From contig NZ_KB899252.1 of the NCBI RefSeq assembly GCF_000378105.1, positions 1-64,000 of the forward strand: a stretch of DNA of 64,000 bases. Reading direction: 5' to 3'. The position numbers were made by a program, and so were the translations under genes. The stretch is from Rubritalea marina DSM 17716. GTDB lineage: Bacteria; Verrucomicrobiota; Verrucomicrobiia; Verrucomicrobiales; Akkermansiaceae. Every line of letters begins with the position of its first letter. Positions within the stretch are counted from its first letter, which is position 1. The notes beneath the pieces were generated by a model. The model made no database searches. It saw nothing but the letters and a program-made list of their open reading frames with translations, and was not told where the DNA came from. Below are positions 2,625 to 12,950 of the stretch, piece after piece.

Positions 2625-2672
2625 CGGTTTCCGGAGCCGAGGATCCAGGTTCGATTCCTGGTGGGACTACCA
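2624..2672 (+). other. tRNA-Arg(CCG) 3' fragment, probable att site
   Basis: The 49 bases read as the 3' part of a tRNA: anticodon stem TCGGT/GCCGA around the loop TTCCGGA (anticodon CCG, arginine), a 4-nt variable region, T-arm CCAGG-TTCGATT-CCTGG, acceptor strand TGGGACT, discriminator A and an encoded CCA. No D-arm or 5' acceptor strand precedes it; that place is taken by the dispersed motif. Tyrosine integrases commonly recombine within tRNA anticodon or T loops and leave exactly such a 3' copy at the far end of the island. In this orientation the intact tRNA and the island body should be to the left. Confidence 0.75.
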
Positions 2673-3872
2673 CGCAGCCGCGGGGAAGCGATTGATATAA
2701 TCTAGCCATTGTTGGCAGATTGCCTCAGCTGAGAAACCATCGGCTAGCTGGCGCTTCGCTTGCTTGAGCGATGCCTGACTAGGTTGTGATTGTTGGACCC
2801 CGAGCATTGAAGCTCCAAGCGCGCTGGGGCAGTGTGAGTCTAAGCTGATGTGATGGTCGCTGTATGGCTCAATGAGTCCCACCGGTGTCGAGAGCACCGG
2901 AACTTCCGCCATCATCGCCTCTAGAGCTGGCAAACCAAAGCCTTCTGCCGCTGAGGTGACTACCACGGCGCAAGACTTTCCAAAGACGCCGGGGATGTGC
3001 TGCGACTCGACCGGGCCAATGTAGTTCACATCCAGCCCAGCGCGCGTCATTTCAGCGATTTTTGTGAGGATTTTTTGGCGGTAGGAAGCGTATCCTTGCG
3101 TCCCGGCAATCACGAGAGGCAGCGCCTGATCAGCGAGTTGGCAGTACACGGCGTAGCCATCGAGCAAGAGGTCGAGGTTCTTGCGTTTTTCCAGTTTAGA
3201 AAGACATAGAAACATCCGGGGCTCTCGGTCCGTCGATGGAGCGTAATGTTCCACCATGTTGTGGATGGTGGTGATGCTCTGCGGTGGCTGATAGATACTC
3301 AAGATATCACGCTGTACCGCATCGGAGACGCAGACGATTCCAGCTGAAAAACGCATGATCAGCGCGTACTGCATCAAGGCGACTTGGTGGCTCTGACTCT
3401 CCGAGGAATGATACAAATCGGCCCCAAACTCGGTGAAAACACGATCAATGTGGATCGACTGAAACATCTGCTCGATGGCACCTTTGATGTCTTTACTCCG
3501 GACCTTAAAACGCTCGGAAAACTCATCGAGACTGGGCATCCAATGCGGGTTCAGGAGCATCCAGCTATCGTGCACCATATTGATGGTGGGTGTGTTGCCC
3601 TTGGGGATCCACGAGGTGTTGGGATTGATGAAAAGATCGATCTGGTTTTCGTGGAAAAAGTGGCTGAGGCGCGTGCTACCCTCACGGCTGTGAGACATCT
3701 CATGCAGCACCGTGAGCTTCGGATTGCTGGAGCGGGCCTCAGTCTCCTTCGACACCAGTAGCTCCACTTGATGCTCGCCCGCAAGTCTAGGCGCCAGCCT
3801 CTTTGCGAGAGTCTCTGCTACTCGCCCCACCCCTGAGTTGGGTTCTCTGCGCACATCAATTGCAATTCTCAT
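2667..3872 (-). CDS. GT4-family glycosyltransferase
   Basis: A 401-residue GT-B fold enzyme. The N-terminus MRIAIDVRREPNSGVGR has the usual glycine-rich acceptor-domain start, FLCLSKLEKRKNLDLLLDGY opens the donor-binding half, and EGFGLPALE near residue 310 is the E-x7-E nucleotide-sugar motif. It transfers a sugar to a polysaccharide or lipid acceptor that cannot be predicted; no other polysaccharide genes adjoin it. The stop codon and last Trp codon lie inside the CCA end of the tRNA-Arg fragment, so its 3' end abuts the island attachment site. It is likely chromosomal rather than island DNA. Confidence 0.85.
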   Translation of the reverse strand: MRIAIDVRREPNSGVGRVAETLAKRLAPRLAGEHQVELLVSKETEARSSNPKLTVLHEMSHSREGSTRLSHFFHENQIDLFINPNTSWIPKGNTPTINMVHDSWMLLNPHWMPSLDEFSERFKVRSKDIKGAIEQMFQSIHIDRVFTEFGADLYHSSESQSHQVALMQYALIMRFSAGIVCVSDAVQRDILSIYQPPQSITTIHNMVEHYAPSTDREPRMFLCLSKLEKRKNLDLLLDGYAVYCQLADQALPLVIAGTQGYASYRQKILTKIAEMTRAGLDVNYIGPVESQHIPGVFGKSCAVVVTSAAEGFGLPALEAMMAEVPVLSTPVGLIEPYSDHHISLDSHCPSALGASMLGVQQSQPSQASLKQAKRQLADGFSAEAICQQWLDYINRFPAAAW

Positions 3873-3984
3873 AAATAGAAACAGCCTTAGCCAAGCCTAA
3901 CAATCATGACAGCATGCTCGCGAAAGTTCCAGAAAAAATCATACACTCCAGCCCCTCTACCAGGATTGGTAGCTCACCTAAGCC

Positions 3985-4018
3985 AAAAAGCCTCAGCTGT
4001 GAATACAGCGGAGGCTTT
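3985..4018 (-). terminator. Rho-independent terminator after exported-protein array
   Basis: AAAGCCTC...GAGGCTTT forms a stem (an inner CTGT/ACAG pairing extends it) and on the reverse strand is followed by TTTTT. It lies just beyond the 3' end of the last of the five paralogues and separates the array from the glycosyltransferase gene. Confidence 0.7.
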
Positions 4019-4044
4019 CGAGTGATTGTTGATGCATCAGGGGA

Positions 4045-4452
4045 TTAGCGCTCAGACTTTTCTCCCTTTTTGGAGTCGAGGTATTCCTTATCGAAGCCAC
4101 CAATGTAACGGACGACGTAGCCTTCGAAGCTATCGTTGCCTTTGGTAAACTCGCTGAGCGGCTGGTAGACGATCATGAACTGGATGTGCATGTCGTCGCC
4201 TTTGGAGAGGTAGCGGGTGCGGCTGATCTTCTTCTCATTGTAGTGAATCGTGACCTTCTTCTTTTCGAAAGGCACGGTGACCTCTTTACCGGTTTTATTG
4301 ACGACCATCACCACCTGCTGTTTGCGGCGGTCAATTTCTTTGATCTTGCCGTTGACGGAGACTTCGCCCGGCTTGAGTGAAGCTGAGGCGAATTGGCTGC
4401 CGCCAATCATTGTGAATACGGCGACGAGAATGCTGAAGTATCGGTTCATCAT
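4045..4452 (-). CDS. Small exported protein, paralogue 5 of tandem family
   Basis: A 135-residue protein with a Sec signal peptide ending near FASA-S. The mature part starts LKPGEVSVNGKIKEIDRRKQ and carries VIHYNEKKIS-like, RYLSKGDDM, IVYQPLSEF and GYVVRYIGGFDKEY segments, all shared with the four neighbouring genes. The alternation of charged and hydrophobic residues suggests a small all-beta domain. This is the most diverged copy with 4483-4896. Function is unknown. It ends the array and is followed by a terminator. Confidence 0.75.
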   Translation of the reverse strand: MMNRYFSILVAVFTMIGGSQFASASLKPGEVSVNGKIKEIDRRKQQVVMVVNKTGKEVTVPFEKKKVTIHYNEKKISRTRYLSKGDDMHIQFMIVYQPLSEFTKGNDSFEGYVVRYIGGFDKEYLDSKKGEKSER

Positions 4453-4482
4453 GGTATGGGGCGTAATGAATAGGTAAGAGTC

Positions 4483-4896
4483 TTATTTTTTAGAGCTTTG
4501 TTGATTTTCGAGGCGTTTGAGGTGAAACGCTTTGTCGACGGCGCCTACATAGCGCACCACATAGCCACTATAGTCAGTATTCTCTTCATCAAATTCACTG
4601 ATCGGTTGGTAGATCAAAACAATCTGATGCAGCATGGTGTCGCGTTTTGCGAGATAGTCCTCCGAACTGAGGGTTTCTTCGTTGAAGCGTAGCGTCGGGC
4701 CCGTTGGCTTATCAAATTTGAAGGTGAGTTCTTTTTTAACTTTGTTGGAGTAGAAGCTCAACTCTTTGGCATCAGCGTCATAGCTTACTAACTTTCCTTG
4801 AAGCACGACTTCGCCTGGCTGGCGGGATGCTTCAGAAACTGACGCGCTCATGACGAACGCGATACCGGCAATCGTTGGAATAATCTTATTTTGCAT
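4483..4896 (-). CDS. Small exported protein, paralogue 4 of tandem family
   Basis: I place the start at the ATG at 4896-4894, which gives a normal signal peptide (MQNKIIPTIAGIAFVMSASV) of a 137-residue protein; a longer frame begins upstream but adds an unlikely N-terminal extension. The mature region has RQPGEVVLQGKLVSYDADAK, SSEDYLAKRDTM, LIYQPISEF and GYVVRYVGAVDKAFH, aligning with the other four paralogues. No enzyme motif or cysteine pair is visible. Spacing to the next gene is only 30 bases, consistent with co-transcription. Confidence 0.75.
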   Translation of the reverse strand: MQNKIIPTIAGIAFVMSASVSEASRQPGEVVLQGKLVSYDADAKELSFYSNKVKKELTFKFDKPTGPTLRFNEETLSSEDYLAKRDTMLHQIVLIYQPISEFDEENTDYSGYVVRYVGAVDKAFHLKRLENQQSSKK

Positions 4897-4988
4897 AATC
4901 GAGGGGTGAATCAATGAGCCTAGATCATAGCCAATAGAAAGTACTCCCAACAAGCTGAAATTCTCAAAAGCTTCTGGGCAGATGATCT

Positions 4989-5399
4989 TTAACGCTTGGA
5001 TGGCTCTCGCTGCGTTAGCTCGTCATGGAATTCTTTATCCATTCCTGAGAGTAAGCGAGCGACATAACCTTTCATTTCTACATTCTTTTTATCGTAGTCC
5101 TTGAGAGGCTGGTAGACGACCAAGGCCTGACGGTAGAGCTCGTCTTCCTTCGATTCATACTTACGAATACTAGCCTTTTTGTGGTTGAAGAGAATGATTG
5201 GACCTTTGCGGGTCTCAAATGCAATCGTGACTTCAGCTTTACGCTTGTTGCAGTAGAAGGTAACCTCCTTCTTTTTCTTATCGAAATCGACAAGTTTTCC
5301 AATCAGGCGAATTTCCCCCGGCTTGAGTGACGCGGAGGCGGTGCCGCAGAGGAAAAGGCAGCTCAGAGCTACCAGCATGGCTTTGAATAAATGTTGCAT
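4989..5399 (-). CDS. Small exported protein, paralogue 3 of tandem family
   Basis: A 136-residue protein with an N-terminal signal peptide (MQHLFKAMLVALSCLFL, cleavage near ASA-S). The mature chain begins LKPGEIRLIGKLVDFDKKKK and includes FETRKGPIILFN, YESKEDELYRQALVVYQPL and KGYVARLLSGMDKEFHDEL. The C-terminal SKR tail is shared with paralogues at 4045 and 5484. No homologous family of known function is recognised. Its closest relatives are the copies on either side, pointing to local gene duplication. Confidence 0.75.
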   Translation of the reverse strand: MQHLFKAMLVALSCLFLCGTASASLKPGEIRLIGKLVDFDKKKKEVTFYCNKRKAEVTIAFETRKGPIILFNHKKASIRKYESKEDELYRQALVVYQPLKDYDKKNVEMKGYVARLLSGMDKEFHDELTQREPSKR

Positions 5400-5483
5400 G
5401 GTTATTAGAGTGGCTTGGGTTGGGCAGTGACTGAAACACCCACATCATCAGTGAGGCACTTCAGAGAGTGTGTAGAGATCCAA

Positions 5484-5894
5484 TTAGCGCTTCGACTTCT
5501 CTGGCTTGGTGAGTTTATCGTGAAACTCTTTGTCTCGACCACCAAGGGTTCGAACCACATAGCCTTTCATGTCGACGTTGGTTTTGTCGTACTCGCTGAG
5601 CGGCTGGTAGACGACAATCGCTTCGAAAAGCATCTTGTCCTGCTTCGACTGGTAACGCTTGATGCTATACTCTTTGATGTTGTAGGTGATGTGTGGCCCC
5701 TTGCGGGTCTCGAAGGCAAAGGTGAGCTCCCTGTCGAGCTTCTCGACATAGAAGGTCAGTTCTTTGGCTTTGCGGTCATAGTCGACAAGCTTTCCTTTGA
5801 GGAGGATTTCACCTGGTTTGAGTGAGGCTGAGGCAACGCCAGTGCTCAAGAGAAGACCTAGCGAGATCATCAATACTTTGAATAATTGGTTCAT
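5484..5894 (-). CDS. Small exported protein, paralogue 2 of tandem family
   Basis: A 136-residue protein with a signal peptide ending ASA-S. The mature region starts LKPGEILLKGKLVDYDRKAK, then FETRKGPHITYN, YQSKQDKMLFEAIVVYQPL, DKTNVDMKGYVVRTLGGRDK. The phrase DKTNVDM is shared with the copy at 6015, and FETRKGP with the copy at 4989, so copies 1-3 form one subgroup. Function is unknown; export to the periplasm or surface is likely. Confidence 0.75.
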   Translation of the reverse strand: MNQLFKVLMISLGLLLSTGVASASLKPGEILLKGKLVDYDRKAKELTFYVEKLDRELTFAFETRKGPHITYNIKEYSIKRYQSKQDKMLFEAIVVYQPLSEYDKTNVDMKGYVVRTLGGRDKEFHDKLTKPEKSKR

Positions 5895-6014
5895 TGGTTT
5901 TGGATAGTTTGGGTTGAATAGGTGAATAATGCTGCAGATTGTAGGATATTTTCGTAACGCGCAAGCACAAGTATCCCTTAGAATACGAAAGGTCTACCTA
6001 ATGGTTAACGCACG

Positions 6015-6425
6015 CTAGCGTTCCGATTTATCAGTTTGTGTCTTGTACGCGTGAAATTCTTCATCGCATGCGCCAATCATACGCACCACATAGCCGACCA
6101 TGTCCACATTGGTTTTGTCGTACTCATTGAGTGGTTGGTAGACAAGCACGGCCTCGTGGTACATCTCATCTTGTTTTGACTGGTAGCGACGGATGCTTAT
6201 TTTTTTCTCATTGAAAAGAATAAGCGGCCCCTTGCGACCCTCAAATTTGAAGACGAGATCTTTGCCGTGCTTGGCAGTGTGAAACACAATTTCCTTCTTC
6301 TTTTTGTCGAACTCGACAAGCTTGCCACGCAGGAGAATCTCACCTGGCTTCAGAGAAGCAGATGCCATGCCTGATGTGAACAGAAGCCCTAGAGCCACCA
6401 CGATCATTCTTAATATACGATTCAT
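6015..6425 (-). CDS. Small exported protein, paralogue 1, follows fucP
   Basis: A 136-residue member of the five-copy family, with a signal peptide (MNRILRMIVVALGLLF..ASA) and mature LKPGEILLRGKLVEFDKKKK, FEGRKGPLILFN, YQSKQDEMYHEAVLVYQPL and DMVGYVVRMIGACDEEFHA segments. Its ATG is 33 bases after the fucP stop with no terminator between, so read-through from the fucose operon is possible. That is the only hint of a functional link; nothing in the protein itself resembles a carbohydrate-active enzyme. Confidence 0.75.
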   Translation of the reverse strand: MNRILRMIVVALGLLFTSGMASASLKPGEILLRGKLVEFDKKKKEIVFHTAKHGKDLVFKFEGRKGPLILFNEKKISIRRYQSKQDEMYHEAVLVYQPLNEYDKTNVDMVGYVVRMIGACDEEFHAYKTQTDKSER

Positions 6426-6458
6426 TTGTATATCTGTGTAGTTTTTAGGGCCTGAGAT

Positions 6459-7748
6459 CTAGCTAGCCTGTAGCCTAGGCTTGCGGCAGAGGAAGCCATA
6501 AATGGCAATCACCACAAAGCAAATAAACGGTAGGTAGAAGGAAACGTTTACCCCGCTTGAATCAATAATCGCGCCTTGTAGCGGCGGCATGAGACAGCCA
6601 CCACCAATTGCCATGATCAAGCCGGCGGAGCCAAGCTTCGCATCTTCTTTCAGACCTTCCAGCGCGATACCGTAGATTGTGGGGAACATCAACGCCATGC
6701 AGCCAGATGTAGCCACCAAGCAATAGATGCCAGCGCGTCCTTCGAGGTAGATGGTTCCTAGAATGGTCGCCATGCCGCCGAGCGCAAGCACGGTGAGCAG
6801 CTTGCCAGGGGTGAAGAATTTGAGAAGGAAGGTACACACAAAGCGTGATGTGAGGAAAAGACACATCGCAGCAATGTTGAAGTTCTGAGAAAGCGACTCT
6901 GCTTCTTGCTCAGCCATGCCCTCAGCCATGAACACCTCTGTGCCATAGTGGATGATGAAGGTCCAACACATGATCTGCGCACCCACATAGAAGGCCTGAG
7001 CAACCACGCCGCCTATCCAACGCATATTCTTGAACAAGCGCCCAAAGGTAGCTCCCAATTGCAAACCACCAGACTTATCGCGTTGGTGAACAGGCAGCTT
7101 CACAATAGCGAAGACGACGAGCACCACTAGCACCACAATACCGAGAGTCACATACGGTGCTCGAAGGATCGCAAGATCCGACTGCACGATCGCTTCAATC
7201 TCAGCTTCAGGAAGGGCAGCACGCTCTTCTTGGGTACGGCTGTCAATTTTGCTCATGATGAAGGTCTTTGCCACGAACATGCCGGTGAGCGCCCCCATTG
7301 GGTTGAATGCCTGTGCTAAGTTGAGACGGCGAGTGGCGGTCTCGTCTTCGCCCATGGACATAATGTATGGGTTCGCAGATGTCTCGAGGAAGGATAGTCC
7401 GCAAGTCATGATGAAGAAACACGCAAGGAATGGCGCGAAGCTCAGAGTGATACTCGCCGGGATGAACAACAAGCACCCAACAGCGTATAAAGTAAGGCCA
7501 GTAAGTATGCCCGCTCTGTAGGAAAAACGGGTGATGAAAATCGCTGCTGGCAAAGCCATGAAACAATACCCACCATAGAAGGCTGCTTGCACCAGCGATC
7601 CTTCAAAGGCGCTCATGTCGAGAATCTTAGAAAAGACCTTCACCATCGGGTTCGTGATGTCGTTCGCAAAGCCCCACAGCGCGAAGAGCGTGGTGACAAG
7701 GATGAAGGGGATCAAGTACTCTTTAGGTACAACGGGCTTTTTAGTCAT
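6459..7748 (-). CDS. fucP: L-fucose/H+ symporter FucP (MFS)
   Basis: A 429-residue inner-membrane permease with about 12 hydrophobic helices. It has the FucP-type start IPFILVTTLFALWGFANDIT, the GLSFLETSANPYI segment and ATRRLNLAQAFNPMGA, all characteristic of the FHS (fucose/glucose-galactose) subfamily. It imports L-fucose with a proton. It is the last gene of the fucose operon (lactonase, SDR, FAH hydrolase, UxaA dehydratase, fucP), which makes L-fucose the most likely substrate over glucose or galactose. Length is normal for the family. Confidence 0.9.
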   Translation of the reverse strand: MTKKPVVPKEYLIPFILVTTLFALWGFANDITNPMVKVFSKILDMSAFEGSLVQAAFYGGYCFMALPAAIFITRFSYRAGILTGLTLYAVGCLLFIPASITLSFAPFLACFFIMTCGLSFLETSANPYIMSMGEDETATRRLNLAQAFNPMGALTGMFVAKTFIMSKIDSRTQEERAALPEAEIEAIVQSDLAILRAPYVTLGIVVLVVLVVFAIVKLPVHQRDKSGGLQLGATFGRLFKNMRWIGGVVAQAFYVGAQIMCWTFIIHYGTEVFMAEGMAEQEAESLSQNFNIAAMCLFLTSRFVCTFLLKFFTPGKLLTVLALGGMATILGTIYLEGRAGIYCLVATSGCMALMFPTIYGIALEGLKEDAKLGSAGLIMAIGGGCLMPPLQGAIIDSSGVNVSFYLPFICFVVIAIYGFLCRKPRLQAS

Positions 7749-7831
7749 AAGTATGGTTTGGTTTTAGGTAGGTGAATGTTAGATAACCAAGTGTGAGGAG
7801 CTTGGCAATTTCGATTTTCAAATCGTGGGAT

Positions 7832-9478
7832 TTAGAGGGAAACGCCACGTCGCCACGGGATGAAGTCGTCTTGCCCGAGTCCGACAGCCTTGGTGGTGTG
7901 ATTGCCACTGGCCACTTCGAGGATCATCTCTAAGAGTCTGTTACCAGCCTCTTGGATACTTTCTTTCCCTTCGATCACAGTACCAGCATTGTAATCGATC
8001 AGGTCTGGGTGGCGCTCAGCGGTGGTGGTATTGGATGCCACCTTGATCACGGGACAAATCGGGTTGCCCGTAGGGGTCCCCAGCCCGGTAGAAAAGAGGA
8101 TCACATTGCAGCCTGAGCCAGTCATGGCCGTGGTAGATTCCACATCATTGCCTGGAGTGCACACGAGGCTGAGGCCATCGCGGCGCAATGGTTCGGTGTA
8201 GTCGAGCACATCCACGACAGGAGCAGTGCCGCCCTTCTTCGCCGCCCCAGCGGATTTAATCGCATCAGTAATCAAGCCGTCAGTAATGTTACCTGGGCTC
8301 GGGTTCATCGAGAACCCTGAGCCGATCGCTTCTGCTCGGGCGTTGTAGTCTTCCATGATCTGGATAAAACGCTTGGCCTCCACCTGCGTCTGACAACGAC
8401 GAATCAAGTCAGCCTCAACACCACAGAGCTCTGGGAACTCTGAGAGAACAGCGCGGCCATTCAGCATGCTGAGCACGTCAGTGACATGGCCAATCGCTGG
8501 ATTCGCTGAAATTCCAGAAAAGCCATCGGAGCCGCCACATTCCATGCCCACGGAAAGCTTGGTGATCGGAGCCTCTTCACGCGTTTGTCGATTCACCTGG
8601 GTGAGTCCCGCAAAGATCTGGCGCATGGCATCCTCGAGCAGCACCTCCTCCGATGGGTACGCTTGTTGCTCGAACACCTGAAGCGGACGATTGAATGATG
8701 GACAACGCTTCTGCATTTCCTCTTTGAGAATGGATACCTGAGCGTGCTGACAACCAAGAGAAAGCACCGTGACTCCAGCCACATTCGGGTGCGTGGCGTA
8801 GCCGGCTAGCAAGCGGCAGAGTGAGTCGGAATCGCCACGATCCGAACCACAGCCCATGGAATGCGCGAGAAACTTGATGCCATCGACATTCGGGAAAAGT
8901 CGCTGCGCAAGTACAGATTCCTCTGACTCAAAGCTCACTTCAGCCAGTGCTTGCCCCGCTGCTTCAGCAGCAGCCAAGCGCTCAGCAAAATCTTCATACT
9001 TCTCAGACTTGCCGTAGCCCAGTGGCTTCAGCAAAGCATTCTGGAGCATGCGAAGGTTGCGGTTCTCACAAAAAACCATCGGGATCACCAACCAATAGTT
9101 GGCAGTACCAACCGATCCGTCCTCACGGTGAAAGCCCTGGAAGGTGCGTCCTTCAAAGGCGCTCACATCTGGCTTGGTGCTCCATTCAAAACTCCCCTCT
9201 TCGTAGAGGTCGATCCCGAATGGGTCAGCGGCATGGTGTAGATTGTGCGTGTGCAGCAAGGTCCCCGCAGGCACGTCTTCTGATACAGTGCCCACAAGCA
9301 CACCGTACATAGTGACTTTGTCACCCGCCTTCAGATCCTGGATCGGAAATTTGTGCTTTGCATTGACCTCCGTACGGAGCGCGATGCTTTGGCCACCGTG
9401 CTGTACAGTATCGCCGGCTGCGAGGTCAGTGAGCGCCACGAGCACATTGTCCCTTGGGTCGAGTTGGAGAGTAGTCAT
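7832..9478 (-). CDS. UxaA-family dehydratase, probable L-fuconate dehydratase
   Basis: A 548-residue altronate/galactarate dehydratase-family protein: N-terminal SAF domain (about residues 5-95), then the catalytic part with SVGMECGGSDGFSGISANPA and GSGFSMNPSPGNITDGLI. I use the ATG at 9478; an upstream TTG at 9496 is possible. In its operon it is the only dehydratase, between FAH hydrolase and permease genes, so it should convert L-fuconate to 2-keto-3-deoxy-L-fuconate. Enolase-superfamily enzymes do this step in Xanthomonas, whereas Campylobacter fucose loci use a UxaA-type gene, as here. Family is certain, substrate inferred. Confidence 0.85.
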   Translation of the reverse strand: MTTLQLDPRDNVLVALTDLAAGDTVQHGGQSIALRTEVNAKHKFPIQDLKAGDKVTMYGVLVGTVSEDVPAGTLLHTHNLHHAADPFGIDLYEEGSFEWSTKPDVSAFEGRTFQGFHREDGSVGTANYWLVIPMVFCENRNLRMLQNALLKPLGYGKSEKYEDFAERLAAAEAAGQALAEVSFESEESVLAQRLFPNVDGIKFLAHSMGCGSDRGDSDSLCRLLAGYATHPNVAGVTVLSLGCQHAQVSILKEEMQKRCPSFNRPLQVFEQQAYPSEEVLLEDAMRQIFAGLTQVNRQTREEAPITKLSVGMECGGSDGFSGISANPAIGHVTDVLSMLNGRAVLSEFPELCGVEADLIRRCQTQVEAKRFIQIMEDYNARAEAIGSGFSMNPSPGNITDGLITDAIKSAGAAKKGGTAPVVDVLDYTEPLRRDGLSLVCTPGNDVESTTAMTGSGCNVILFSTGLGTPTGNPICPVIKVASNTTTAERHPDLIDYNAGTVIEGKESIQEAGNRLLEMILEVASGNHTTKAVGLGQDDFIPWRRGVSL

Positions 9479-9553
9479 AGGAAATGAGGGGAGCAATGCG
9501 CCCCCGATTTGGTGTTGTTGATCATGATTGGGCGCTGAGCCCGCGGTGAGCGA

Positions 9554-10405
9554 TTAGCGCTCCTTTGACGCTACTTGCTTCTGAGTACCGAGCTTATCGA
9601 TGCCAAGCTCAACCACATCACCTTCCTTGAGGTAGCGTGGTGGGTCAAAGCCGAGTCCAACACCGGCTGGAGTTCCCGTAGAAATAACATCGCCTGGAAG
9701 CAAGGTCATGAACTCTGAAAGGTAGGAAATCACGTGCTGAACATTGAAGATAAAGTCCGCCGTGGTGCTGTCTTGAAGCTTCTCACCATTGACACTCAAC
9801 CAAAGCTTGAGCTCGTTTGGATCTGGCACTTCGTCAGTCGTCGCCACGTAAGGACCAAATGGTGCGTAGGTGTCTGCAGACTTCCCCTTCACCCATTGGC
9901 CACCCATCTCGATCTGCCATGCACGCTCAGAATAATCGTTATGTACAGCGTAGCCAGCCACGTAGTCCAAGGCATCTTCCTCGGAAACATACTTCGCTTT
10001 CTTACCGATCACGACAGCAAGCTCTACCTCCCAGTCAGTCTTCTCCGACTTGCGTGGGATCACGATGGTGTCGTTCGGGCCAGACCACGCGGACGTGGAC
10101 TTAAAGAAGACCACGGGCTCACTTGGTGGCTCCATGCCAGATTCCTTGGCGTGCAGCGCGTAGTTGAGCCCAATGCATACGATCTTTGAAGGGCGAGCAA
10201 TCGCAGGAGCAAGTGTCACTGATGACGCCTCCACTGACGGAAGTTCATTGCTAGCGACGAATGCCTTGAGGCGCTCGAGACCGTCATTTTCGAAGAACCC
10301 TTCATTCCAATCTTCGCCGAAGCTGGAGCAATCAAGGATCGTGTTGTCGTCTGCAAAGACCCCAGGGGTGACTTTGTCGTTTTGGATGAATCGTGTGAGT
10401 TTCAT
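9554..10405 (-). CDS. FAH-family hydrolase, probable 2,4-diketo-3-deoxy-L-fuconate hydrolase
   Basis: A 283-residue fumarylacetoacetate-hydrolase-fold enzyme. IVCIGLNYALHAKESG starts the conserved domain near residue 73, DWEVELAVVIGKKA gives two metal-binding Glu residues, NDYSERAWQ follows, and the C-terminus has STGTPAGVGLGFDPP. In the pathway the protein would cleave 2,4-diketo-3-deoxy-L-fuconate to pyruvate and L-lactate. It lies between the SDR (10449) and the dehydratase (7832) in one transcription unit. A ureidoglycolate lyase-like or other diketo-acid activity cannot be excluded from sequence alone. Confidence 0.85.
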   Translation of the reverse strand: MKLTRFIQNDKVTPGVFADDNTILDCSSFGEDWNEGFFENDGLERLKAFVASNELPSVEASSVTLAPAIARPSKIVCIGLNYALHAKESGMEPPSEPVVFFKSTSAWSGPNDTIVIPRKSEKTDWEVELAVVIGKKAKYVSEEDALDYVAGYAVHNDYSERAWQIEMGGQWVKGKSADTYAPFGPYVATTDEVPDPNELKLWLSVNGEKLQDSTTADFIFNVQHVISYLSEFMTLLPGDVISTGTPAGVGLGFDPPRYLKEGDVVELGIDKLGTQKQVASKER

Positions 10406-10448: not shown

Positions 10449-11198
10449 TTAGCGCAACAGCGTGACTCCACCGTCGATGTCGTAGGCGGATCCAGTGATA
10501 AAGGATGCTTTGTCGGAACACAAGAAGGCGGCTAGCTCGGCCACCTCATCAGGTGTGCCCATGCGGCCAATGGGTTGGTACTCGCTGAGTGTTTGCTTCA
10601 CCTGTGGACGCTCTTCTTCGGAGTAATTCTTCTCGAGGAAGCCCTCTACAAAAGGCGTGAGAACACGGGCTGGGCAGATGCAGTTGCAGCGGATGCCTTT
10701 GTCAACATAGTCGCGCGCCACTGACATGGTCATTGAATAAGCGGCACCTTTGGACATCGAGTAGGCAAAGCGATCGAGAATGCCGATCTTGCTCGCGATG
10801 GAGGCCAGGTTGAGGATCGCACCGCCACCCTGTTGCAGCATTTTGGGTACAGCGAAGTGACAGCAATGGTAAACACCCTTCACATTGACACCGTATACTT
10901 TATCGAGCTCCTCAGGACCACAAACCTCCACGTTGCCCACGGCGGCAATGCCAGCATTGTTCACCAAGATATCGACGCGCTCAAGTTGTTCGAAAGCAGC
11001 CTCTACAGAATCCGTAGATGACACGTCACACTGGATCACCTCAGCAGTGCCTCCAGCCTTACGAATCATCTCGGCAGTTTGTTCACCAGCTTCGGTGTTG
11101 AAGTCAAGAATCGCTAGGTGATTGCCCTCTTCGGCAAGTTTCAAGGCGATGGCCTGGCCAATTCCGGAACCAGCGCCAGTTACTACAGCAGTTTTCAT
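10449..11198 (-). CDS. SDR oxidoreductase, probable 2-keto-3-deoxy-L-fuconate dehydrogenase
   Basis: A 249-residue classical short-chain dehydrogenase. It has the NAD(P)-binding TGAGSGIG at residues 8-15, NNAG near 81, a catalytic Ser before YSMSK (Tyr-x3-Lys) and the C-terminal GSAYDIDGG. Asp38 at the end of beta-2 (LDFN) suggests NAD preference. It is 12 bases downstream of the lactonase gene. Of the two SDRs in the cluster, this one sits in the operon with dehydratase and diketo-hydrolase, so it most likely oxidises the C4 hydroxyl of keto-deoxy-fuconate; the other SDR (14228) would act on L-fucose. The assignment between the two could be swapped. Confidence 0.8.
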   Translation of the reverse strand: MKTAVVTGAGSGIGQAIALKLAEEGNHLAILDFNTEAGEQTAEMIRKAGGTAEVIQCDVSSTDSVEAAFEQLERVDILVNNAGIAAVGNVEVCGPEELDKVYGVNVKGVYHCCHFAVPKMLQQGGGAILNLASIASKIGILDRFAYSMSKGAAYSMTMSVARDYVDKGIRCNCICPARVLTPFVEGFLEKNYSEEERPQVKQTLSEYQPIGRMGTPDEVAELAAFLCSDKASFITGSAYDIDGGVTLLR

Positions 11199-11210: not shown

Positions 11211-12038
11211 TTATTGAGTTAATCGGTAAATCTTTGTGGCAGTCTCAGTGTGAATTGCCTCTTGTTCATCTATACTGAGTGAGGAACTAAACTCCGTCAC
11301 ACAATCTTTCCACTTTTTGTAGGAGCTCGCCATCAAGCTCACTGGCCAGTCGGACCCAAACATCAGGCGCTGCGGACCAAAGGACTCGAGCAAGACCTCC
11401 AGGTATCGGCGCATCAGCGTCTCGTCCCAACTCGCATCACGCACCTCTGTCACGAGGCCAGAAATTTTACAAACAAGATGCTCGCGCTTCGCCAGGTCGC
11501 GGATCCCCGCTTCCCAAGCGTCGGGAAAGGATGCCGCACGAATTTCAGGCTTTGCGCCATGATCGAGGACAAATTGCTGCTCTGGATGCCGATCAATGAA
11601 TGCCGTTGCCACGTCCAATTGATTCTGGAAAATCAAGACATCGTAGACCAAACCCTTCTCACCAAGAGCACGCACTCCACGGTCAAAGTCTGGATTGCTT
11701 AAATATTCTTCATCAGCGGCGCCTTGAGTGATCTCGCGCACCCCCACAAAGCGGGGATCACCTGCATAAGCAGCGAGCTGCTCTGACACATCAGCCGCCT
11801 TCAGATCGGCCCAACCAACCACACCCTTGATTTTGCTGCTCTGATCCGCCTGCTGCAAAAGAAAATCATTCTCTTCAAGACAACAGCGCGCCTGCACGGC
11901 CACCGCTCCATCGACTTGATTCTCCTCCAATAACGTGTCCAATTCAGGAGCTAGAAAGCTTCGACGCACATGCTCAGCTTCAATCCAGGAAAATTCTTCT
12001 TCGGTGTAATTCCAGAGATGGTGGTGACTATCTATCAT
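11211..12038 (-). CDS. Amidohydrolase-2 family, probable L-fucono-lactonase
   Basis: A 275-residue TIM-barrel metal hydrolase of the amidohydrolase-related (COG3618) family. The N-terminal MIDSHHHLWNY gives the HxH metal site, VLDHGAKPEIR carries another His, and LMFGSDWPV provides the catalytic Asp. I start at ATG 12038, because the upstream extension begins at TTG and adds residues before the usual MIDxH start. It would hydrolyse L-fucono-lactone to L-fuconate. It is the first gene of the operon and is divergent from the FadR-type regulator. Confidence 0.85.
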   Translation of the reverse strand: MIDSHHHLWNYTEEEFSWIEAEHVRRSFLAPELDTLLEENQVDGAVAVQARCCLEENDFLLQQADQSSKIKGVVGWADLKAADVSEQLAAYAGDPRFVGVREITQGAADEEYLSNPDFDRGVRALGEKGLVYDVLIFQNQLDVATAFIDRHPEQQFVLDHGAKPEIRAASFPDAWEAGIRDLAKREHLVCKISGLVTEVRDASWDETLMRRYLEVLLESFGPQRLMFGSDWPVSLMASSYKKWKDCVTEFSSSLSIDEQEAIHTETATKIYRLTQ

Positions 12039-12125
12039 GGTAGCGCCCAAAGCTGTATTACAGAATGACCTTGGTCAATCCAATTTCTGAAAATTCCTGC
12101 CCCCCTAGGCTTAGGCTGTTAGCCG

Positions 12126-12224: not shown

Positions 12225-12950
12225 ATGAGCAAAGCAGGAAGACCATCGATCACAAGCCAGTCTCCACAAAGCGAAGGGGTGGAATCCGCTTTGGAGCGAA
12301 AGATCCTCTCGGGTGAGCTTGAAGAAGGCCAGAAACTCCCCTCAGAAGGGAAGCTTTGCGATGAGTTCGGCGTCAGCCGCACCGCCCTGCGCGAAGCTCT
12401 GCGTGAGTTACGTGGCCGCGGACTCATCGAGACCATCAATGGCAGTGGTAGCTATGTGGCCAGCGGCAACCTCGAAATGGTCTCCAAGGCTGTCGCAGCA
12501 TACTCAAGTTTGGTATCCGATGAAAAAGCCTCCAACGACTTGATCGAATTCCGCATCCTCATCGAGGGAGCCGCTCTCAACAGACTAGCTCACAGCAAGC
12601 GCAACAAAGCGACGCGTATCGAAAGACTTAACGAGTTGATCGGCAAAATGCGCATCACATCCAACGATCTAGAATTTGGTGAGTTGGACTCACAGTTTCA
12701 CATTCAAATCCTCGAGTCCTGCAACAATGCCTTCATCAGCATGATTGGCAAAGCACTCTACTCACATTACCAAAAGCATATCGGCTTGGCCCACATGGCA
12801 GCCACCGAGGGAATGCGCGTCGACACCATCGAAGAGCACGAAGCGATCATCACCGCCCTCATCAATAGTGATGGAAAGGCTGCTCAGACAGCCCTTGAGA
12901 ATCACCTCACTGCTGCAGCCGAGCGCTCCGAAATCATGGGACTCGACTGA
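12225..12950 (+). CDS. GntR/FadR-family transcriptional regulator of fucose genes
   Basis: A 241-residue regulator. An N-terminal winged helix spans about residues 15-85 (ILSGELEEGQKLPSEGKL, then FGVSRTALREALRELRGRGL), followed by an FCD all-helical effector domain with LDSQFHIQIL, HEAIITAL and NHLTAA supplying the Asp/His metal-ligand pattern. AAAGG six bases before the ATG is a good ribosome site. Divergent from the fucose operon, with a palindrome between, it is probably a repressor relieved by a sugar acid such as fuconate; the ligand is inferred. Confidence 0.88.
   Translation: MSKAGRPSITSQSPQSEGVESALERKILSGELEEGQKLPSEGKLCDEFGVSRTALREALRELRGRGLIETINGSGSYVASGNLEMVSKAVAAYSSLVSDEKASNDLIEFRILIEGAALNRLAHSKRNKATRIERLNELIGKMRITSNDLEFGELDSQFHIQILESCNNAFISMIGKALYSHYQKHIGLAHMAATEGMRVDTIEEHEAIITALINSDGKAAQTALENHLTAAAERSEIMGLD

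Follow-up and report, generated by a model that had tools for sequence, protein, structure and literature searches.

The window analysed here is a 64,000 bp stretch of Rubritalea marina DSM 17716 (GCF_000378105.1; contig NZ_KB899252.1, positions 1–64,000). It contains an array of five small proteins, likely exported, encoded in tandem next to fucP, the L-fucose:H+ symporter gene. This tandem family is real and taxonomically isolated, and its members have a predicted fold of a known class, the oligonucleotide/oligosaccharide-binding (OB)-type barrel. The array runs on the minus strand from 6425 to 4045, 3′ of fucP, and consists of five full-length, head-to-tail paralogous open reading frames (ORFs) of 135–137 codons. 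In transcription order they are:

6015–6425, minus strand: paralogue 1, 136 amino acids (aa), the first gene 3′ of fucP, with a signal-peptide-like N-terminus and a predicted OB-type barrel
5484–5894, minus strand: paralogue 2, 136 aa
4989–5399, minus strand: paralogue 3, 136 aa
4483–4896, minus strand: paralogue 4, 137 aa from its ATG (the ORF listing begins at a TTG, 4953), the only copy with an acidic mature protein
4045–4452, minus strand: paralogue 5, 135 aa

Five tandem paralogues of approximately 136 residues had been listed in an earlier reading of this DNA (the original prediction), and all five are present. Starting from the fucP side, the gaps within the array are 120, 84, 92 and 30 bp, and 33 bp separate fucP from the first copy. 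In an alignment of the five, paralogues 2–5 share 59, 56, 38 and 46% identity, respectively, with the copy adjoining fucP. When paralogue 2 was used to query its own genome, the other four copies were returned with E-values of 9e-51 to 5e-28, so their similarity is far above chance. Beyond the five copies, the genome yielded just one match (E 0.07), on another contig.

Sequence features of the array proteins

All five proteins begin with a hydrophobic segment that ends in A-S-A-S or S-E-A-S and, by eye, has no lipobox Cys at that point. A hydrophobic N-terminus that closes on a cut site of small residues and has no lipobox Cys is most simply read as that of a soluble exported protein, in agreement with the signal peptides originally predicted. 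The mature parts are 111–114 residues long and, in four of the five copies, have an isoelectric point (pI) of 9.1–9.6. The motifs described previously proved to be approximate. LKPGE is present in four copies and replaced by RQPGE in the fifth, while YxSKxDxM is exact in three of the five and VVYQPLxxY and GYVVRxxGxxDKE are each exact in two. Past the signal peptide, the residues invariant in all five copies (numbered as in 6015–6425) are P27, G28, E29, G34, K35, D40, K52, F61, N72, S77, Y81, K84, D86, Y96, Q97, P98, N106, G111, Y112, V113, R115, D121 and S134.

No Pfam or NCBIfam model reached its cut-off on any of the five proteins; the original prediction of no known domain therefore holds, with no Pfam domain covering the core at cut-off. 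Sequence searches of PHROGs and the PDB turned up nothing usable (best PHROGs E 0.056), and a phage origin, also without a match among phage records, was dropped for want of score. One copy matched the RimM PRC-barrel model (PF24986) over 35 residues (E 2.6e-4; 21 bits against a gathering threshold of 27). This model was unlisted for the other four copies, and the partial match, which probably reflects a shared beta-hairpin, was rejected. A match of one copy to the YgiW/YdeI (BOF) stress OB proteins (NF033674; E 0.14; 12.3 bits against a curated cut-off of 35) was also dropped.

Predicted fold and comparison with CusF and SilF

AlphaFold2 run on the five-row alignment returned models with mean predicted local distance difference test (pLDDT) scores of 57–79. 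In the best of these (mean 79), block-mean pLDDT is at least 90 over residues 31–100 and 111–120. The model has strands at 29–40, 45–50, 55–60, 68–71, 88–96 and 113–121 and a helix at 78–83, and the array proteins are accordingly predicted to be single-domain barrels of the OB-type fold class. Foldseek ranked CusF first (E 5.7e-3), with no match reaching 0.001. In VIA-align, CusF and SilF made up eight of the nine best-ranked chains (Z 5.7–6.7), with a phage single-strand-binding protein interleaved at 5.8, followed by many other OB proteins, which we take to be of the SSB, RPA, cold-shock and PriB classes. The best VIA-align match was SilF (Z 6.7, 71 aligned residues, 2.3 Å, 16% identity).

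PMC10656224 gives the metal ligands of CusF and SilF as His, Trp and two Met. No His, Trp, Met or Cys is invariant past the signal peptide in the five array proteins, and none of the five mature parts contains a Trp; the array is therefore without a conserved Cu/Ag site. CusF_Ec (PF11604) was unlisted for all five proteins at E up to 10, in a search where HMMER filters drop most matches above 0.1. Thus, the array proteins resemble CusF and SilF, their best fold matches, in being small, apparently exported, single-domain OB barrels, but differ in lacking the His/Trp/Met/Met site, a Pfam match and adjacent efflux genes, in forming five tandem copies 3′ of a sugar transporter gene, and in the length of the mature part, which is 75–84 residues in most of the matched CusF/SilF chains.

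When conservation was mapped onto the model, mean pairwise identity was 0.58 in loops (37 positions), 0.45 in strands (48), 0.43 in helices (20), 0.41 in the C-terminal tail (15, with residues overlapping the last helix) and 0.27 in the signal peptide (23). This is the opposite of the variable loops and conserved core originally described: in a permutation test, the value was 0.965 for loops being less conserved and approximately 0.035 for loops being more conserved. With five sequences and a predicted model behind it, this comparison is modest evidence. Loops more conserved than strands suggest a shared loop surface, which would be expected of proteins that all bind one kind of ligand rather than of diversified binders. 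On the model, the copies look more like binding proteins with a common loop surface than like metal chaperones.

Age of the duplications and selection

Over whole genes, nonsynonymous divergence (pN) is 0.26–0.46 and synonymous divergence (pS) is 0.67–0.78, which is saturated, in all ten pairs of copies; nucleotide identity between copies is 0.48–0.63. The mature parts likewise have pN lower than pS in every one of the ten pairs, and only in the 25-codon signal-peptide part does pN equal pS (0.54 each), for a single pair. The whole-gene comparison points to purifying selection; the duplications are old and the mature proteins constrained. Saturation leaves room for recent diversifying selection, yet none of the data support it.

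Distribution

A profile built from the five copies found, at E 0.01, only the source genome among 260 genomes of its family, 12 of the genus included. In 58 relatives, with the source genome counted, the best non-self match had E 0.039, and in 387 genomes sampled from the phylum, again including the source, the other matches were weak (best E 0.027). Pattern scans of limited sensitivity matched 25 stretches across 84,980 species and 44 in viral contigs, none of which was confirmed. Plasmid and phage records gave no match at E 0.1, and among 8,263 ORFs in loci L059–L149 only the window's own copies matched (best other E 0.68). As this absence rests on drawn samples and on scans of limited sensitivity, a diverged relative could be missed. 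Copy number, which the original prediction had proposed to compare across relatives, is five in this genome, and no copies were found in the others searched. The array was not found among the matches listed for literature on small exported proteins, CusF and fucose in Verrucomicrobia, which is not proof that it is unpublished.

Sixteen weak hits and locus L162 were re-read on both strands. The best score belonged to L007 (16.8 bits). L009, L013 and L016, also weak matches to the array profile, are short exported-looking proteins that contain a G-x-[LV]-x-S-[YF]-D stretch and are perhaps members of other exported beta-domain families. The remaining weak hits were frames within longer or unlikely proteins and were rejected.

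A second exported OB family in the same order

L007, which matched the array profile at E 0.039, is a 113-residue exported-looking protein. Of 288 genomes of the order, 30 had a match at E 0.01 when it served as the query, and for 25 of these E was no higher than 2.6e-15. The other five were weak (E 5e-4 or worse), four lying in frames of 523–558 codons and one in a frame of 142. Matching genomes have one to three places each. We know of no published name for this family, here named A2. A profile of the A2 group matched one of the 260 genomes of the window's own family, and not the window's genome. The A2 alignment contains 13 of 28 proteins from 30 loci (two loci gave no hit); many of the 15 left out are near-identical, three are 462 aa long and some are additional full members. 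L054, L055 and L056 encode 462-residue proteins (in frames of 537–558 codons) with an N-terminal part like the A2 barrel and, by eye, an apparent second similar unit.

The first strands of the A2 model (29–40, 45–50 and 55–59) have nearly the same residue numbers as those of the array. Its best match is CusF (Z 10.1, 73 aligned residues, 1.9 Å), with RecO (10.0) and PilY2 (9.6) close. Neighbourhoods were read at 12 of 39 A2 places. A resistance-nodulation-division (RND) pump cluster was found in ten (L150–L152, L154, L155 and L157–L161, but not L153 or L156), a P-type ATPase cluster in seven and an adaptor cluster in five. All four pumps tested exceeded the CusA/CzcA cut-off, and the one ATPase and one adaptor tested both fitted. 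The CusF Pfam model touches four of the 13 A2 members, weakly (best E 0.006); by eye, the usual CusF ligand pattern is seemingly absent and other His positions are conserved.

Full-length comparison of array and A2 with hhalign gave E 8.8e-6, but the match spans 49 columns and roughly half of these belong to the signal peptide; with mature parts only, E was 0.045 and 4/200 column shuffles scored higher. In a fixed register, residues 25–62 scored +0.16 against a mean of −1.03 (standard deviation 0.21, maximum −0.39) for 75 other registers, a score that 0/20,000 permutations reached. With L007 removed the score was +0.15, reached by 3/5,000 permutations that kept strand class and parity. The score of a gapped local alignment was reached by 4/300 shuffles. 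All of these comparisons carry a selection bias, as A2 was found through an array-profile hit. Because the mature-only hhalign score is not clearly significant, we do not claim common ancestry of the array and A2, which is possible, the sequence comparisons being suggestive only. Their signal peptides are, by eye, of comparable length, and their first strands fall in the same register; however, A2 is found mostly in heavy-metal efflux loci (10 of the 12 read), whereas the array lies beside fucose genes and a glycosyltransferase gene. A2, an exported OB family that accompanies heavy-metal efflux genes and whose CusF score is weak or absent, may be the more general lead.

Genetic context of the array

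The genes and signals surrounding the array are as follows:

3985–4025, minus strand: terminator-like hairpin 3′ of the fifth copy (−20.5 kcal/mol, z −6.5), followed by a T run
6426–6458, minus strand: fucP/array junction, 33 bp, no hairpin
6459–7748, minus strand: fucP, L-fucose:H+ symporter (TIGR00885, 549.7 bits, cut-off 280.4)
7832–9496, minus strand: galactarate/altronate dehydratase family protein, presumed fuconate dehydratase
9554–10405, minus strand: fumarylacetoacetate-hydrolase family protein (best NCBIfam match 2,4-didehydro-3-deoxy-L-rhamnonate hydrolase, below cut-off, 317.9/500 bits)
10449–11198, minus strand: short-chain dehydrogenase
11211–12050, minus strand: amidohydrolase (only NCBIfam match L-fucono-1,5-lactonase, below cut-off, 267.5/400 bits)
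12225–12950, plus strand: divergent GntR/FCD regulator

Beyond the regulator is a gene resembling a flavin mononucleotide (FMN)-dependent lactate dehydrogenase, and the gene set fits a non-phosphorylated L-fucose route to pyruvate and lactate.

The hairpin at 3985–4025 was detected by folding, with 0/200 shuffles as stable, and is absent from a consensus terminator scan, in our reading because of a stem mismatch. At the fucP junction (z 0.70) and in the three longer gaps of the array (those of 120, 84 and 92 bp; z 0.16 to 0.82), folding was no more stable than in shuffles. The first copy thus follows fucP without a terminator-like fold, as originally predicted. Given the strong terminator after the last copy and the hairpin-free junction, the array is plausibly the end of the L-fucose operon, and both its co-transcription with fucP and its expression on fucose are plausible from this layout.

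Matches to fucP at E 1e-30 were found in three of the 11 other genomes of the genus. Downstream of fucP, locus L059 has a short-chain-dehydrogenase-like ORF directly 3′, and the contig of L060 ends 260 bases past the gene. Matches in named genomes, of which 80 were kept, came from many Bacteroidota, some Verrucomicrobia and one member of the Akkermansiaceae; hmmsearch revealed no array relative in the 80 loci fetched, where flanks are partial and some contigs are just 3–4 kb. The dehydratase gene beside fucP is of the galactarate/altronate type in the window and, by eye, enolase-superfamily-like in two congeners (L059:928–2265 and L060:985–2322), so the dehydratase step of the fucose operon may have been swapped between them.

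Proposed function and alternatives

The paralogy of the five copies, their signal-peptide-like N-termini, predicted fold class and operon-like layout, the terminator-like hairpin, the family's absence from the other genomes searched and the lack of a conserved Cu/Ag site come directly from sequence or computation. From the findings above we infer that the array would encode five soluble single-domain OB barrels exported to the periplasm or secreted, old paralogues retained under purifying selection, and that its genes would be the last of an operon for L-fucose import and catabolism, bounded by the terminator past the fifth copy. The copies would probably share one binding mode through the same loop surface. 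As to the ligand, our guess is something anionic that the cell encounters when it feeds on sulfated polysaccharides rich in fucose, such as a sulfated fuco-oligosaccharide. An anionic glycan is suggested by the basic pI of four of the five mature proteins, by the 36 sulfatase-domain matches in the 3.0 Mb genome and by PMC8857213, in which Verrucomicrobiota, Akkermansiaceae included, are reported to use sulfated fucose polysaccharides and the phylum to be specialised in sulfated fucose and rhamnose polysaccharides. For five exported OB barrels under purifying selection at the end of a fucose operon, with common loop binding of an anionic ligand, we put the probability at roughly 0.3.

Several observations weigh against this reading. 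With the best fold Z at 6.7, below 8, the structural match could reflect no more than a widespread arrangement, which is why we claim the OB class and no special tie to CusF. One mature protein, that of 4483–4896, is acidic (pI 6.1). GH29, the one fucosidase family searched, gave a single alpha-fucosidase match in the genome, barely above threshold (E 1.4e-5; 30.4 bits together with its neighbours, cut-off 25.2). A sigma-70-like match (6440–6412, minus strand) overlaps the fucP junction, and the three intra-array gaps of 84–120 bp could hold promoters. In the two congener fucP loci read (that of L060 ending 260 bases past the gene), no array member lies 3′ of fucP, and conservation adds nothing to the link with the fucose genes, as the array was found in one genome.

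If the operon link holds, the array would represent a previously unnamed exported protein class tied to fucose use in Verrucomicrobiota, and a metallochaperone-like barrel used without a metal site. A more specific form of the fucose reading, in which the proteins are a new periplasmic OB family that binds fragments of sulfated fucose glycans, as a five-member set of differing affinities co-expressed with the fucose importer, is unlikely; if true, it would mean that an OB fold can take the place of the customary periplasmic sugar-binding proteins.

The same gaps (120, 84 and 92 bp), the sigma-70-like match across the junction and the lack of relatives at the 80 fucP loci fetched (partial flanks) or 3′ of fucP in the two congeners would suit small envelope or stress proteins that are independent of fucose, merely 3′ of fucP and transcribed from promoters of their own in the gaps or at the junction. 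We regard this as about as probable as the fucose reading. The shared strand, the hairpin-free 33 bp junction and the position of the sole strong hairpin past the last copy speak against it, and sigma-70-like matches in 3800–7900 are no commoner than in shuffles (three found, 3.7 expected). A role as CusF-like metallochaperones that supply an efflux pump with Cu(I)/Ag(I) is rather improbable. In its favour, CusF and SilF head the fold matches, the possibly related A2 family accompanies CusA/CzcA efflux genes in this order, and the genome has three CusA/CzcA-type pumps over cut-off but lacks a CusF_Ec match at E 0.1, which leaves the CusF role without a canonical protein. Against this, the ligands named in PMC10656224 are not kept, no CusF_Ec match was listed for the five proteins within the limits given above, and the three pumps are on contig C2 while the array, with its fucose and glycosyltransferase neighbours, is on C6.

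Two further explanations had been offered in the original prediction. Diversifying selection, as in variable recognition proteins directed against phage, host or competitor ligands, could account for tandem paralogues 38–59% identical to the first copy, for a family found in one genome only and for the pair at pN = pS in the signal-peptide part. However, conservation is higher in the predicted loops, each of the ten pairs has pN under pS over the mature part (though saturation hides recent events) and no phage record matched, with the best PHROGs match at E 0.056; we consider this explanation improbable. Dosage expansion, raising the amount of one protein, would fit five intact copies in a row, but nucleotide identity of just 0.48–0.63 and saturated synonymous sites indicate copies that were neither recently multiplied nor kept alike, and it is very improbable.

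Region between the array and the contig start

A GT4-like glycosyltransferase gene (2667–3872) lies 3′ of the array; none of the 11 other genomes in the genus has a match to it at E 1e-20. Ending beside it is a degenerate tRNA-like stretch (2607–2668; 26.2 bits against a gathering threshold of 29) that is shortened at the D-arm, and a PoNi-type immunity gene (433–1191) is located to the left, between this stretch and the contig start. The tRNA-like stretch may represent one boundary of an inserted island.

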